A DNA stretch of 50,142 nt, taken from assembly GCA_018813285.1 (NCBI GenBank), contig JAHJBY010000043.1, positions 1 to 50,142 of the forward strand, written 5' to 3'. Shown one piece after another: positions 18,045-33,307 of the stretch (the stretch's first letter is position 1; every line of letters starts with the position of its first letter). The position numbers were made by a program, and so were the translations under genes. Source of the DNA: Candidatus Omnitrophota bacterium (lineage in GTDB: Bacteria; Omnitrophota; Gorgyraeia; Tantalellales; Tantalellaceae). The notes beneath the pieces were generated by a model. The model was not told the origin of the DNA. It ran no database searches and saw only the letters and a list, made by a program, of their open reading frames with translations.

Positions 18045-18131
18045 TGGTGCGGGCGAAGGGACTTGAACCCCCAAGGAGTTGCCTCCATATGGACCTGAAC
18101 CATACGCGTCTGCCAATTTCGCCACGCCCGC
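18045..18131 (-). tRNA. tRNA-Leu (anticodon CAG), CCA encoded
   Basis: Reverse complement GCGGGCGTGGCGAAATTGGCAGACGCG-TATGG-TTCAGGT-CCATA-...-GGGGGTTCAAGTCCCTTCGCCCGCACCA; long variable arm. Confidence 0.93.
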
Positions 18132-18814: not shown

Positions 18815-19201
18815 GGGGGTGACAGGTCTCGACATGTTATCTTGATCCATTGAGCAGCATGCAGAGGTTGTCAGGTGGCCTCTTTAAAAACCTGGCAAAA
18901 AAAATAAATGCAGACTACAATCCAGTAGCTGACGCCGAGGCTATTTTAGCCGAAGGCACACTAGCTCCTCAATACGCAGGGGCGGGTTCATTATTTGGCG
19001 CTCTGGCCATCTAATTTAACCTTAAACTAAGCAGAGACGCCCGGAGTTTTATCTTCTGCCTCCGGGTCTGATCTAAGAAGGTTGCTTTCGGAAAGGCCCA
19101 GTTTACCAGGCCTTCCGGGAAAAGATAAGGGTAGACTAAGCATGTAGATACTCGTTGGGTAAGTTCCATGGACCCGGGTTCGAATCCCGGCACCTCCACC
19201 A
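18815..19201 (+). ncRNA. ssrA: tmRNA (SsrA) with an extended tag reading frame
   Basis: 5' GGGGGTG pairs with 3' CACCTCC(A)CCA; PK1 region GCAGAGGTTGTCAGGTGGCCTCTTTAAAAACCTGGCAAAAAAAATAAAT; GACTAAGCATGTAGA; T-arm GGGTTCGAATCCCGG; directly downstream of smpB. Confidence 0.95.
19187..19201 (+). repeat. att-like direct repeat, copy 1 (tmRNA 3' end CCGGCACCTCCACCA)
   Basis: Identical 15-mer at 19900-19914. Confidence 0.85.
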
Positions 19202-19403
19202 TTTAAAACCAAAAGCGGAAGAGAATAAACTCTCCTCCGCTTTTTTGTTTTAAATGTCTGCAATGCCTTCGGCATTCCAGGTTTATTCGGCTCGTCGCAT
19301 TTTGTGAATAAATTCAAAAAATACTCCTCACCTCATAAACTTGTGTAGGCACCGGGGTCCCTCGGTCTGGTTGTACAGGGTTGTATCTTCAGACCTCGGT
19401 CTC
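19196..19403. repeat. Direct repeat of about 208 bp, copy 1
   Basis: CCACCATTTAAAACCAAAAGCGG...GGTCTGGTTG...TCAGACCTCGGTCTC recurs with few differences at 19561-19768. Confidence 0.9.
19211..19246 (+). terminator. Intrinsic terminator downstream of ssrA (copy 1)
   Basis: AAAAGCGGAAGAGAATAAACTCTCCTCCGCTTTTTT. Confidence 0.85.
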
Positions 19404-19438
19404 CCGGCACGCTGATATTTGAAAATAAACTTTGGGAA

Positions 19439-19560
19439 ATACAGTACCGTTTATCAGGGAAATACAGGAAAAAGGAAATACAGTACCGTTTATCAAATCA
19501 ATCCCACACCTGTACCTGGAAATACAGTACCGTTTATCAAATCAATCCCACACCTGTCCC
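19439..19560. repeat. Dispersed repeat family GAAATACAGTACCGTTTATCAAATCAATCCCACACCTGTACCTG (left cluster)
   Basis: Core ATACAGTACCGTTTATCA occurs three times here and again at about 21388. Confidence 0.9.
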
Positions 19561-19768
19561 CCACCATTTAAAACCAAAAGCGGAAGAGAATAAACTCTCC
19601 TCCGCTTTTTTGTTTTAAATGTCCGCAATGCCTTCGGCATTCCAGGTTTATTCGGCTCGTCGCATTTTGTGAATAAATTCAAAAAATACTCCTCACCTCA
19701 TAAACTTGTGTAGGCACCGGGGTCCCTCGGTCTGGTTGAATCCGGTTGTATCTTCAGACCCCGGTCTC
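19561..19768. repeat. Direct repeat of about 208 bp, copy 2 (includes a second terminator copy, 19576-19611)
   Basis: See copy 1; offset 365 bp. Confidence 0.9.
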
Positions 19769-19899
19769 GCGTTCTTCGCCGACGAAGTCCTTCGTAGCCC
19801 AATAAAATGTAAATAATTTGGCGAAGAAGGAAGGCGAAGGTTGATGCTGGGAGGGCGTTAAGCAATGCGACGAAAAGGAGCATTGTAGCCCGAGCAGTG

Positions 19900-19914
19900 C
19901 CGGCACCTCCACCA
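19900..19914 (+). repeat. att-like direct repeat, copy 2
   Basis: CCGGCACCTCCACCA, identical to the tmRNA 3' end. Confidence 0.85.
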
Positions 19915-19960: not shown

Positions 19961-20050
19961 ATGCTAATTATTCCGATGATTTGTGCATAAAATATTGTTG
20001 ATTTGTGCATAACGATATGGTATACTTGTAGCCATAAGAGGGAGGGAAGT

Positions 20051-21271
20051 ATGAAATATATTCCACGATGGCTAGAGGTAAGACTTGAAGGAGCTCTTCA
20101 GGCGAATCCGGTTATCGTTCTTACTGGGCCTAGACAGGTAGGGAAAAGTACACTTTTAGAATATGCCAATTTCTTAAAAGAGTGGAGATATTTAACTTTG
20201 GACGATCCTGACACGTTAGAACAGGCCAAAGAAGATCCCAAGGGACTTTTTTTGGAAAATAAACCTACGATAATTGATGAAGTCCAGAGATGTCCGGAAC
20301 TTTTGCTTACAGTTAAATATCTTGTTGATAAGTCTCGGCGATCTCGAAAATTCATACTTTCTGGATCCGGTAATATCTCTTTGCGACAGGCACCCAGAGA
20401 AACATTAGCAGGACGAGCCAGATATTTACATTTAACGGGTTTTGCTTTTAGGGAATTTCTTGGACTGTCTGCGCAAGGTATTTTTGATCAAATATGGGAG
20501 GGTGCTGATATTGAGGCTTCAAATGTCAAAGCGAGTTTCAATATGGATCATACCGTATGGCGAGGGGGTTTACCCGGTATTATTCTTTCCTCAAATGATA
20601 AAATAGCCCTAGAGCGCTTGAGTGGGTATGTTGATACATATATTCGTAGAGATATTCAAGATTTGGTTAAAGTGAGACATCCTCAGAATTTTCGCCGTTT
20701 AATGGAAGTTCTGGCAAAGTCGGCGGGTTGGGAATCTGTCCAGGAAGAATTATCTAAAGCTTGTGGGGAAACAAGAACCAATGTAAGTAGATATATTAGC
20801 CTTTTGAAAGATACGAATCTTTTGTATGATCTTAAGGGATATGTGTATAAAAATGAAAGAGCGTATAGACAGTCGAAGTATTTTTGGTTTGATTCCGGCA
20901 CCGCTTGTTTTCTTGCAGGTATTAGATCAACTAAGGATCTAAATAGACAAAGAGCAAGAGGAAGGTATTTGGAGAATTTTATTCTGCAACAGATATTGGC
21001 ATGGACTTCCTTGCAGATTGAAGAGCCGGAGATATTCTATTGGAAACCTAAAAACGCGGATGGAGAGGTTGATTTTGTGGTTACTTCAGTGGGAAAAGGT
21101 GTAGGAATAGAAGTAAAATCCTCAAAAGAGATCAAATTTAAAGATACTCGACATATGAGAAGTTTTCTTAAGGTCCATCCGGAAATTGAGAAGGGCATTA
21201 TAGTATATGCAGGTGAGAAGGTTTACCCGGTAGCTTCGAATGTTTATGCTGTTCCTTGGTTCGTTTTCTAA
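20051..21271 (+). CDS. AAA-family ATPase with DUF4143-like C-terminus (AAA_14)
   Basis: VIVLTGPRQVGKSTLL (Walker A), NKPTIIDEVQRCPELLLTVKYLVD (Walker B), FILSGSGNISL, REFLG, C-terminal EVDFVVTSVGKGVGIEVKSS nuclease-like fold. ATG at 20051 preferred. Confidence 0.9.
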   Translation: MKYIPRWLEVRLEGALQANPVIVLTGPRQVGKSTLLEYANFLKEWRYLTLDDPDTLEQAKEDPKGLFLENKPTIIDEVQRCPELLLTVKYLVDKSRRSRKFILSGSGNISLRQAPRETLAGRARYLHLTGFAFREFLGLSAQGIFDQIWEGADIEASNVKASFNMDHTVWRGGLPGIILSSNDKIALERLSGYVDTYIRRDIQDLVKVRHPQNFRRLMEVLAKSAGWESVQEELSKACGETRTNVSRYISLLKDTNLLYDLKGYVYKNERAYRQSKYFWFDSGTACFLAGIRSTKDLNRQRARGRYLENFILQQILAWTSLQIEEPEIFYWKPKNADGEVDFVVTSVGKGVGIEVKSSKEIKFKDTRHMRSFLKVHPEIEKGIIVYAGEKVYPVASNVYAVPWFVF

Positions 21272-29263: not shown

Positions 29264-29791
29264 ATGAAGTGCGATGAGTGCGGTATCAGGGAAGCGGCGA
29301 TCCACTTGACCGAAGTTGTGAACGATAAAGTGACCAAACTGCATCTTTGCGAACAATGCGCCAGGGAAAAAAGCAAGGAGATGCAATCCCATTTTGGTTT
29401 AACCGATCTCATCTCGGGCCTTATGGATTTTGGGCCACAGCAAAGGCAGGAAGCCGCCTCTCCGCGAGGAAAGGGTCCCACATGCGGGTCTTGTGGAATG
29501 AGTTATAGTGAGTTCCAAAAATTCGGGAAATTAGGTTGCGGTAAATGCTACGAGGCTTTTGAGGATAAATTCAGCTCTTTGCTCAGGAGCATACACGGTT
29601 CGGACAAGCATATAGGAAAAATGCCGTTTAGAGGTACAAGCGTAGTGCCTGAACAGGAAAAAATGAGGCAATTAAAAGAAGAACTGGAAGCGCTTATTCG
29701 GTCCGAAGAGTTTGAAAAGGCTGCTGTTATGCGGGACAGGATAAGAGAGCTTGAGGAAACAGTGGAGAAACATGGTGAAGATGGATCTTAA
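29264..29791 (+). CDS. mcsA: McsA-like protein (Cys-rich, UVR motif)
   Basis: CDECG, CEQC, CGSCG, CGKC pairs; C-terminal UvrB/UvrC motif LKEELEALIRSEEFEKAAVMRDRIRELE; followed by mcsB and clpC. Confidence 0.9.
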   Translation: MKCDECGIREAAIHLTEVVNDKVTKLHLCEQCAREKSKEMQSHFGLTDLISGLMDFGPQQRQEAASPRGKGPTCGSCGMSYSEFQKFGKLGCGKCYEAFEDKFSSLLRSIHGSDKHIGKMPFRGTSVVPEQEKMRQLKEELEALIRSEEFEKAAVMRDRIRELEETVEKHGEDGS

Positions 29792-30836
29792 CGATCTTGT
29801 CAACGAAAAAAGCGAGTGGCTTCGAGGAGAAGGGCCCAGATCCGACATAGTGATGTCGACCAGAGTGCGTTTGGCGAGAAATCTCGATGGATATCCGTTT
29901 TTTAGCAGGGCAAAGGACGAACAGCGGAAGAACGTGCTGGAAAAACTTGTCTCTGTGTTTAAGAAAAACGATCTTTTAAAGGATGCCGCGTTGATCCGCA
30001 TCAAAGACATATCTGAAGTGGACAGAGAATTTTTAGTGGAACGGCATTTGATGAGCCAGGAACATGCCGTGTGCGTGGAACGAAAGGGGTTGGTTGTCGG
30101 CAAAGGGGAGATCCTCAGCATCATGATCAACGAAGAGGATCATTTGAGAATGCAGATCCTTCGTTCGGCTCTTAATATCCGAGAAGCATGGACGGCTATT
30201 GATGCCCTCGATACGAGCCTTGGGAAATCTCTTACGTTCGCGTATTCGAACAGGTTTGGATATCTCACGGCATGTCCGACAAATACGGGTACGGGACTCA
30301 GGGCTTCGGTCATGCTGCATTTGCCGGCTTTAGAAATGACGGGACAGATCGAGAAAGTGTACGAAGCTATATCAAAACTGGGATTAACCATCCGCGGTTT
30401 TTACGGCGAAGGCTCGGAAGCGGCCGGTAATTTTTTTCAAATATCCAACCAGGTGGCTCTGGGACATTCTGAAGGGGATATTCTTGATAATTTGGAGAGA
30501 GTTATTAACAGGACGATATCAAGGGAAGAACAGACGAGAGGCTATTTGATCGATAAGAAAAAGCGGGAGACCCAGGACGGGATCTTCAGGTCATATGGTA
30601 CGCTGAAAAGCGCGAGGATCATTACGTCAAGGGAGACGATCAAGCTGCTTTCAGCCGTGCGGCTTGGTGTGGATCTGGGGATAATATCCGGCATAGACAC
30701 GTCCTCGCTTAATGAGATCCTTTTGCTGATGCATCCGGCGCACTTGCAGAAAATAAATTCCAAACAACTTAGTTCACACGAGAGGGATATTAAGAGAGCG
30801 GATATGATCAGGGGAAAAATAGGGGGAGGGAATTAA
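29781..30836 (+). CDS. mcsB: Protein-arginine kinase McsB
   Basis: DIVMSTRVRLARNLDGYPF, CPTNTGTGLRASVMLHLPAL, RGFYGEGSEAAGNFFQISNQVALGHSE; overlaps the mcsA end. Start uncertain (29751, 29772 or 29781). Confidence 0.93.
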   Translation: MDLNDLVNEKSEWLRGEGPRSDIVMSTRVRLARNLDGYPFFSRAKDEQRKNVLEKLVSVFKKNDLLKDAALIRIKDISEVDREFLVERHLMSQEHAVCVERKGLVVGKGEILSIMINEEDHLRMQILRSALNIREAWTAIDALDTSLGKSLTFAYSNRFGYLTACPTNTGTGLRASVMLHLPALEMTGQIEKVYEAISKLGLTIRGFYGEGSEAAGNFFQISNQVALGHSEGDILDNLERVINRTISREEQTRGYLIDKKKRETQDGIFRSYGTLKSARIITSRETIKLLSAVRLGVDLGIISGIDTSSLNEILLLMHPAHLQKINSKQLSSHERDIKRADMIRGKIGGGN

Positions 30837-30838
30837 TA

Positions 30839-33307
30839 ATGGCGGCATTTAGTAAATTTACCGAAAGGGCGAGAAAAGTTATTTTGTTAGCTAAGGAAGA
30901 ATCAAAACGGGTTAACCATGAATATATCGGAACTGAACATGTGTTGCTCGGATTGGTGAAAGAGGGGGAGGGTGTAGCCGCGGCAGTGCTGAACTCTCTG
31001 GGGCTAGACGCGGAAAATATCCGTAATGAAGTAGAAAAACTTGTTCAACCCGGTCCCACTCCGGTCATGAATACGGACATACCCTTTACGCCTAAAGCAA
31101 AAAAAGTCATAGAATTGGCGATGGATGAAGCTCGCAATCTCGGGCATAATTATATCGGGACCGAACATTTGTTATTGGGTCTCATACGCGAAGGGGATGG
31201 TGTAGCGGCGCAAGTTCTCCTGAATACGGGGCTTGACCTTAAGAGCGTGCGAGACGAAGTTCTCAACCTTTTGGGATCATCCGTTCCCGGGTATTCTACG
31301 ACGCCGGATGCTAAACGTAATAAGAGGAAGACTAAAACCCCGGCATTGGATTCTTTTGCCAGGGATCTTACAGAGATGGCCAAGGAGGATAAATTGGATC
31401 CGGTCATAGGCCGGGATAAAGAGATACAGAGGGTAGTGCAGATCCTCGGTCGCCGCAAGAAAAATAATCCGGTGTTAATAGGCGAAGCGGGTGTCGGCAA
31501 AACAGCCATCGTTGAGGGATTGGCTCAGAAGATAGTCGCAGGGGATATCCCGGAAATACTCAAGAAAAAAAGGGTTCTTATACTGGATCTGGCGTCGATG
31601 ATAGCCGGTACTAAGTACCGCGGACAATTCGAAGAGAGGATAAAAGCGGTTATGAAAGAGATCAAGTCCTCATCCGAAGTTATTGTTTTCATAGACGAAA
31701 TACACACGCTTGTCGGCGCTGGCGGCGCCGAAGGGGCTATAGACGCGTCAAATATGTTGAAACCTTCGTTGCAGAGGGGGGATATACAGTGCATAGGCGC
31801 CACTACTTTTGATGAGTACAGAAAAACTATAGAGAAAGACCCGGCGTTGGAAAGGCGCTTTCAACCTGTTATCGTAGACGCACCCAGCGTGGAAGACACG
31901 ATAGGGATATTAAAAGGTCTCCGGGACAAATATGAGGCGCACCATAACGTTAAGTTCACCGATTCGGCGCTCTCGGCCGCGGCTAAACTTTCAGACAGGT
32001 ACATAAGCGCCAGGTTTCAGCCGGATAAGTCGATCGATCTCATGGATGAGTCGGGGTCTCGGGCGCGCCTGTCTACCATGATCATGCCGACGGACTTGAA
32101 ACAGGAAGAGATAAAGATCGAGGAATATAAGCGGGAAAAAGAAGAAGCCGTAAAAAATCAGGATTTTGAAAAAGCAGCCCGATTCAGGGATCTTGAAAAA
32201 AAAGGAAAAGATGAGCTGGATGAGAAACAAGTGGAGTGGAGAAAACGACAGAACCAACAAGAAGTGTTAGTGGATGAGGAAGATATTGCCACCGTTGTTT
32301 CCGAATGGACGGGTATCCCTCTCGTAAAAGTGGAGGAAAAAGAGTCGGAGAAGTATTTAAAATTGGAGAAGAATCTTAAAGAGCGTGTTATCGGCCAGGA
32401 CGAAGCTATATCGGCTATCGCGCACGCGGTCCGGCGTTCCCGTGCCGGCATAAAAGACCCCAATAGGCCGATCGGGACATTTGTTTTTCTTGGTCCGACC
32501 GGTGTAGGCAAGACATTGCTTGGAAAAAAGTTGGCCGAAATAATATTTGGCAATGAAGACGCGATCATTCAGGTCGACATGTCCGAGTATATGGAAAAAT
32601 TCAATGTGTCAAAACTTGTCGGTGCTCCCCCGGGTTATGTGGGATATGATGAGGGAGGGCAGTTGACCGAGAAAGTGAGACGGAAACCGTATGCCGTGGT
32701 TTTGCTTGATGAGATCGAAAAAGCACATCCGGATATTTTCAATATACTGCTGCAGCTTTTAGATGAAGGCCGCCTTACGGATTCTTATGGCAGAAAGGTG
32801 AGCTTTAAACATACGATACTCATTATGACCTCGAATATCGGTGCGGATCTTCTTAAGAAGACCGGCGCTATCGGATTTCAGAACCCGAAAGACTCGGATT
32901 CATATTCTGACATGAAGGGACGGCTGTTGGAAGAGGTGAAGAAAACTTTTAAACCTGAATTTCTCAACAGGATAGACGATGTCATTGTTTTTCACGGGCT
33001 AACCCGAGAGGATATGGATCGGATCGTGGACATTGAAGTGTTTGAGTCCGCATCCAGACTGAAAGAACAGAATATCGTTGTCACACTGGATCGGGCCGCA
33101 AAAGATTTTCTTATCGCTAAAGGTTTCAATAAGGCTTTTGGCGCGCGTCCGTTAAAAAGAGCCATTCAGAAGTATCTTGAGAACCCGCTTGCCGAGGAGA
33201 TCCTCTCAAACGCGTTCGAGAAGGGATCGAAGATACGGGTAACGGCCGATCCGGCCGCGGAGGCTCTTCAGTTTATAGATGAGGTGAACGAAAATAGTAA
33301 GAAATAG
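30839..33307 (+). CDS. clpC: ATP-dependent Clp protease ATP-binding subunit ClpC
   Basis: Two Clp-N repeats, two AAA domains ([25 protein letters not shown]), UVR-type middle linker. Confidence 0.95.

Follow-up and report, generated by a model that had tools for sequence, protein, structure and literature searches.

A tmRNA of an uncultured Omnitrophota bacterium with a conserved 34-codon tag frame ending in ALAI

The tmRNA found in the window, by which we mean the whole analysed stretch of 50,142 nucleotides, is a genuine ribosome-rescue tmRNA of an uncultured Omnitrophota bacterium, with a tag frame of 34 sense codons ending in ALAI instead of (L)AA. The explanation which we regard as probable as a whole is that of a working long-tag tmRNA whose frame was lengthened by stop loss in helix 5, whose AA end disappeared together with ClpX, and whose tagged products would be handed to another AAA+ protease. 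The features on which this reading is built are collected in Table 1.

Table 1. Features of the tmRNA locus and of the candidate protease genes in the window
Feature	Position	Strand	Evidence or remark
smpB, 150 aa	18287..18739	+	NF003843 183.9 bits, TIGR00086 168.9 bits (each above its cut-off); PF01668
ssrA, a complete one-piece tmRNA gene, 387 nt including CCA	18815..19201	+	Infernal, ARAGORN, end-to-end alignment of 12 homologues from the family
Pseudoknot 1 (PK1) region	18864..18897	+	S1 and S2 pair in 13/13
Resume codon GCA	18910..18912	+	right after PK1 and AAUAAAU motif; Rfam alignment
Tag reading frame, 34 sense codons and TAA, ADYNPVADAEAILAEGTLAPQYAGAGSLFGALAI*	18910..19014	+	frame kept in 13 genera
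Former helix 5, now in-frame hairpin	18964..18983	+	18964-18969 with 18978-18983
CAA (Gln, codon 21), probable ancestral TAA position in old helix-5 loop	18970..18972	+	judged from relatives, alignment of f1/f8/f40 with f19/f16/f58
New helix 5 enclosing the stop	18997..19041	+	18997-19005 with 19032-19041
Second pseudoknot, CCCGGAG/CTCCGGG with CTTCT/AGAAG	19040..19085	+	pairing in 94.5% and 86.8% of cells; numerous double changes
Final pseudoknot, ahead of the tRNA-like domain	19087..19138	+	pairing in 86.8% and 94.5% of cells; numerous double changes
mcsA-like	29264..29791	+	Cys-rich sequence alone
mcsB-like	29751..30836	+	PF00217 guanido phosphotransferase, 212.7 bits
clpC-type AAA+ unfoldase, 822 aa, candidate ClpP partner (putative role)	30839..33307	+	two Clp_N, UVR, AAA_2, ClpB_D2-small; AIGFQ loop

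A tmRNA had been proposed at this place by an earlier sequence-only reading, and both programs used here bore it out. The Infernal match to RF00023 (160.9 bits, E 4.1e-65) covered the full model, 1-374, and the gene ends given by ARAGORN were identical. The full-length covariance match includes the tRNA-like domain, complete in acceptor stem, T arm and terminal CCA, and the acceptor and T stems are paired in all 13 relatives. No second RF00023 match over the family cut-off was present in the 1.76-Mb window genome. A permuted or two-piece tmRNA was rejected, with one sub-threshold hit of 17.6 bits as the only candidate. The partner protein SmpB is encoded immediately upstream of the tmRNA. Judged by its sequence, the window tmRNA is predicted to be alanylated and to act in trans-translation, adding the charged alanine and 34 encoded residues onto stalled proteins. 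Six genomes of the family, to which Candidatus Omnitrophus magneticus also belongs, gave no tmRNA match (G007, G008, G009, G015, G016 and G017). Assembly gaps are the likely cause, because four of these six lack smpB as well and in G008 smpB lies 218 nt from a contig end.

The surroundings of the gene showed some further features. A tRNA-Leu(CAG) gene (18045-18131) lies on the opposite strand near smpB-ssrA; most members of the family, and several further families, also have this tRNA gene next to their tmRNA. A second copy of the 15 nt that close the tmRNA (CCGGCACCTCCACCA, 19187-19201) lies about 700 nt downstream at 19900-19914, with a terminator-like hairpin after it. The stretch between the two holds a 214-nt direct repeat (19193-19406 and 19558-19771, 96%) as well as three copies of a 43-nt repeat. 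The repeats 3' of ssrA resemble what remains of an element that had integrated at the 3' end of the gene. Just past this element-like stretch comes a 422-aa ORF (20003-21271) whose sequence includes the ATPase-like motif GPRQVGKST.

The frame running from GCA at 18910 to the TAA at 19012-19014 was exactly the one suggested earlier, as were the early stops in the other two frames, which were found at codons 6 and 7. When the tmRNA-borne alanine is counted, the tag has 35 residues. The non-Ala terminus is likewise real and probably affects protease recognition. The tag frame was open in all 13 genera compared (the window and 12 other genera of its family), with indels in frame; a single one-codon indel was seen among the 13 frames, each of which stops at TAA, and they share the pattern [AV]-x-Y-[ND]-P-V-[AT]-[ED]-A-E-x-I-L-A... 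There was no frame disruption and no sign of excision. An assembly indel was rejected, since the frame is intact in 12 other genera from separate assemblies. Pairwise differences among the 13 genera numbered 730, 437 and 1109 at codon positions 1, 2 and 3, and the median dN/dS of the tag frame was 0.26. For codons 1-18 the synonymous share of codon differences was 0.53, against 0.20 and 0.09 in the shifted frames. From codon 19 to the end, position 3 changed most (0.457 vs 0.335 and 0.229 at positions 1 and 2). By these substitution patterns codons 1-18 are under amino-acid constraint, and we infer that all 34 codons are translated in the cell.

The stop codon had been placed inside helix 5, and this helix is real: its core pairs in 13 of 13 relatives, with double changes at 3 of the 5 core pairs. 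The frame contains a further hairpin, 18964-18969 with 18978-18983, in which 98.7% of cells are paired and 4 of 6 pairs have changed on both sides. A different hairpin noted before, GGCTA-TTT-TAGCC at 18939-18951, is present in the window, without conservation among the relatives. Covariation identified three pseudoknots, compared with the usual, though not universal, four. PK1 sits upstream of the resume codon, and the place of PK2 is taken by coding sequence and the new helix 5. In two family members (L018 and L019), about 30 extra nt were seen in the PK1 loop, in columns 69-103 of the tmRNA alignment, and in four other tmRNAs (L050, L051, L152 and L171) the resume codon is unusually distant from the 5' end.

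The additional length had been read as some 60 nt of extra sequence lying between tag start and tag end. This was not upheld when short-tag relatives were compared; they point to stop loss, with the tag extended on its 3' side across the old helix 5. These relatives, with tags of 20-23 codons, share the N-terminal half (ANYNPVAEAEAILA...) and carry their TAA within the helix-5 loop, the helix being of the type GTTGCC-TAA-...-GGCAAC. TAA is found in the homologous loop in the tmRNAs of families f19, f16 and f58; the same hairpin is retained in f1, the family of the window, and in f8 and f40, where the loop is without a stop. From the site of the lost stop onward the frame has 14 more codons before it meets a second stop, enclosed by the new helix 5. 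The short form is probably ancestral, because f58, which has short forms, is outside the class. With the tag region left out of the tree, the long-tag rows grouped together, and a single clade was not rejected (p-AU 0.36); in the tmRNA tree, family f5 was placed within f1 via a long branch. One f8 tmRNA (L058) ends at a TAA in the old hairpin, and the f8 tail is readable downstream of it, out of frame. The order of events may then have been as follows. The TAA in the ancestral helix-5 loop would have changed to CAA, lengthening the frame; the old helix 5 would have stayed as a hairpin, now read through by the ribosome; and a downstream stop in the new helix 5, at the place of pseudoknot 2, would have replaced the old one.

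Two other readings of the extra codons were considered. The check by Infernal and ARAGORN recommended earlier supported the gene in both cases; as to the tag, a covariance model does not call frames, and ARAGORN reported no more than the last 16 codons of this frame (APQYAGAGSLFGALAI). The true tag could be this peptide, read from GCT at 18964, with the first 18 codons serving as RNA only, and ARAGORN made similar cuts in several relatives. We consider this very improbable, as 18964 is 54 nt beyond the expected resume point and within a helix arm, while the canonical resume motif and the Ala codon are at 18910. The start called by ARAGORN also shifts among close relatives sharing one frame, and the synonymous share over codons 1-18 exceeds that of the other frames. 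Some caution is in place here, as tag callers such as ARAGORN truncate or miss long Omnitrophota tags. The extra length could also answer a need of the RNA, the in-frame hairpin being structural and the added codons a by-product. Compensatory changes do maintain the hairpin, but it is the old helix 5, present around the stop in short-tag tmRNAs as well, and 31-52 codons are reached in other families with different sequences, so that we hold this reading to be improbable. The stop-loss reading would make the loss of a stop in helix 5 a simple route by which the reading frame of a structured RNA lengthens.

Long tags were common throughout the phylum. The survey covered 217 tmRNAs from 215 genomes in 53 families; tags were read automatically, with the resume codon set by eye at about ten loci. 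Tag length had a median of 26 codons and ranged from 6 to 52. Tags of at least 20 codons were carried by 186 of the 217 tmRNAs and tags of more than 35 codons by 14, whereas a review gives 8-35 residues for tmRNA tags (PMC8012679). The first residue was Ala in 206/217. A hairpin-like stem around the stop (score >=18) was present in 51%, vs 11.5% in shuffles. Most of the tags no longer end in AA. The other ends are diverse (N, R, L, V, Y, H, I, C, W), mostly hydrophobic, and alike within family groups, such as LGY/LAY/LAI in f1, f8 and f40 and FGLN/FAN in f3. The longest tags, of 51 and 52 codons, occur in two genomes of family f26 (L094 and L126) and end in ALAP and ALAH; the two differ at 3, 8 and 14 sites at codon positions 1, 2 and 3, with the frame and most of the end kept. 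The shortest, ATNVAA, has six codons and belongs to a ClpX-positive genome (L161 in G051). In f23 the tags seemingly start with Asp and finish with Cys (DAGCVSFSFC, DAGCVPFSFC and DASCGVAFSLC in L175, L243 and L152), the apparent resume codon being GAC in place of an Ala codon.

The ending of the tag was associated with ClpX. Among 190 genomes surveyed, ClpX was over the curated cut-off in 34 and missing in 156, and ClpP was present in 184. The ClpX zinc finger (PF06689) was detected in precisely the same 34 genomes. Concealment of ClpX by loss of the zinc finger was rejected, since the core model TIGR00382 passed its cut-off in the same 34 as well. The window genome, which is 96.7% complete, gave no match to PF06689 or TIGR00382, and in it tig-clpP is followed by an aminotransferase gene, not clpX; in another genome (G047) the site after spoVG is likewise occupied by a gene other than clpX. 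In the 150 genomes with a read tag (25 with ClpX, 125 without), an AA ending was found in 24/25 of those with ClpX and in 13/125 of those without (Fisher p 2e-17, from counts that are not independent), the remaining 112 of the latter having a non-AA ending. By family the table was 10/1/3/29 (p 1.5e-6, with family labels that are not independent). The 30 ClpX proteins that were read have canonical RKH and GYVG pore loops. The single ClpX-positive genome with a non-AA tag, G039, ending VIL, was kept as a true exception and not as contamination, because its ClpX neighbours and loops are like those of other Omnitrophota. Loss of ClpX does not force a change of the tag end, because thirteen genomes without ClpX retain AA. 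The existence of such genomes, while the opposite combination hardly occurs, fits a loss of ClpX first and a later change of the degron. Tag length showed only a weak relation to ClpX (median 23 vs 27 codons); its explanation by ClpX loss was unsupported, as many ClpX-positive genomes are also at 18-26 codons.

We propose that the window tag is without the AA end read by ClpX because ClpX was lost in its lineage while ClpP was kept. Tagged proteins would then most likely go to another AAA+ protease, ClpCP in the first place and FtsH in the second. ClpCP comes first because ClpP is kept and a Clp_N protein was found in 34 of 35 sampled genomes. About 12 kb downstream of the window tmRNA, a clpC-type gene directly follows mcsA-like and mcsB-like genes (29264-33307), a row whose arrangement is known from Firmicutes. 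The window genome also encodes a second long Clp_N protein (912 aa), probably ClpB, two FtsH and one LonB/LonC-like protease. A LonA-grade match was absent from it, as from most sampled Omnitrophota.

Common ancestry might carry much of the association between ClpX and AA, because so few pairs on supported branches of the tmRNA tree are independent: about three agree and none disagree (p 0.25). If the old groups simply kept ClpX and AA and the rest lost both, no causation would be involved, and the dependence of the family labels suits this view. On the same tree, however, at least 12 ClpX changes and at least 9 AA changes are required, no pair runs in the opposite direction when ClpX is taken as the first trait, and in mycoplasmas, too, ClpX and the usual tag end are known to have been lost together (PMC3985003); we find ancestry by itself an unlikely account. 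The association keeps its direction on the tree and is consistent with the proposed link, at a support too weak for significance. The main competitor to the proposed hand-over to another protease is drift of the tag after ClpX loss, with degradation unneeded and only ribosome release of importance. The many different ends would agree with drift, and a review places ribosome recycling above degradation in importance (PMC3985003). Against it stand the excess of position-3 changes from codon 19 to the end, the likeness of ends within family groups together with their mostly hydrophobic nature, and the retention of frame and most of the end in the 51- and 52-codon tags. Drift therefore appears to us doubtful, though it deserves to be taken seriously. 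In the preferred reading, the tag is directed to a protease other than ClpXP. Its extension to the phylum, that ClpX was repeatedly lost with ClpP kept, that the tag was re-aimed to ClpC, and that frames grow by stop hopping between hairpins up to 52 codons, is offered tentatively, as a possibility that we would not put at even chances.

To our knowledge, the AA end of the tag is treated as near-universal, mycoplasmas being the only exception that has an explanation. A second would be added by Omnitrophota, in which ClpX alone goes and ClpP stays. The natural series of genomes with ClpX and AA, without ClpX and with AA, and without ClpX and with another end lets degron and unfoldase be matched in vitro, and Omnitrophota tags are possible new orthogonal degrons. 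No link between Omnitrophota and ClpX was found in a literature coverage that is incomplete and does not establish priority, and tmRNA and Omnitrophica appeared together in passing mentions alone.

The canonical one-piece tmRNA (RF00023) is exemplified by that of E. coli, with the 10-codon tag AANDENYALAA. The window tmRNA shares with it the tRNA-like domain, PK1, the resume codon after PK1, the stop in helix 5 and SmpB, but it has 34 codons and not 10, about threefold the tag length, ends in ALAI and not ALAA, carries a former helix 5 inside its frame, and has three identified pseudoknots and not four. With no (L)AA end and no ClpX match in its genome, the window tag is also unlike a tag read by ClpXP. 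Chlamydial tags, from the PVC group like Omnitrophota, are longer than usual too, at about 22 residues, but end in AA, with ClpX present. The mycoplasma tag has a length of about 27 residues and is read by Lon. In mycoplasmas the tags end in AFA, ClpXP is absent, and the ALAA end was lost together with ClpX (PMC3985003). Omnitrophota resemble them in the long tag and in the loss of an ALAA-type end along with ClpX. They differ in that mycoplasmas miss ClpP too, whereas Omnitrophota keep it and are mostly without a LonA-grade match, and the sequences are unrelated; in the window genome ClpP is present, a LonA-grade match was not obtained, and the tag end is ALAI and not AFA. Tags of Carsonella end in lysine, and their frame was recognised by strain comparison (PMC4131195). 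A non-AA terminus and comparative recognition of the frame are common to both cases, but Carsonella represents extreme genome reduction, while Omnitrophota tags are long and constrained. The window tmRNA is of a known kind, and the mycoplasma case is its closest precedent.
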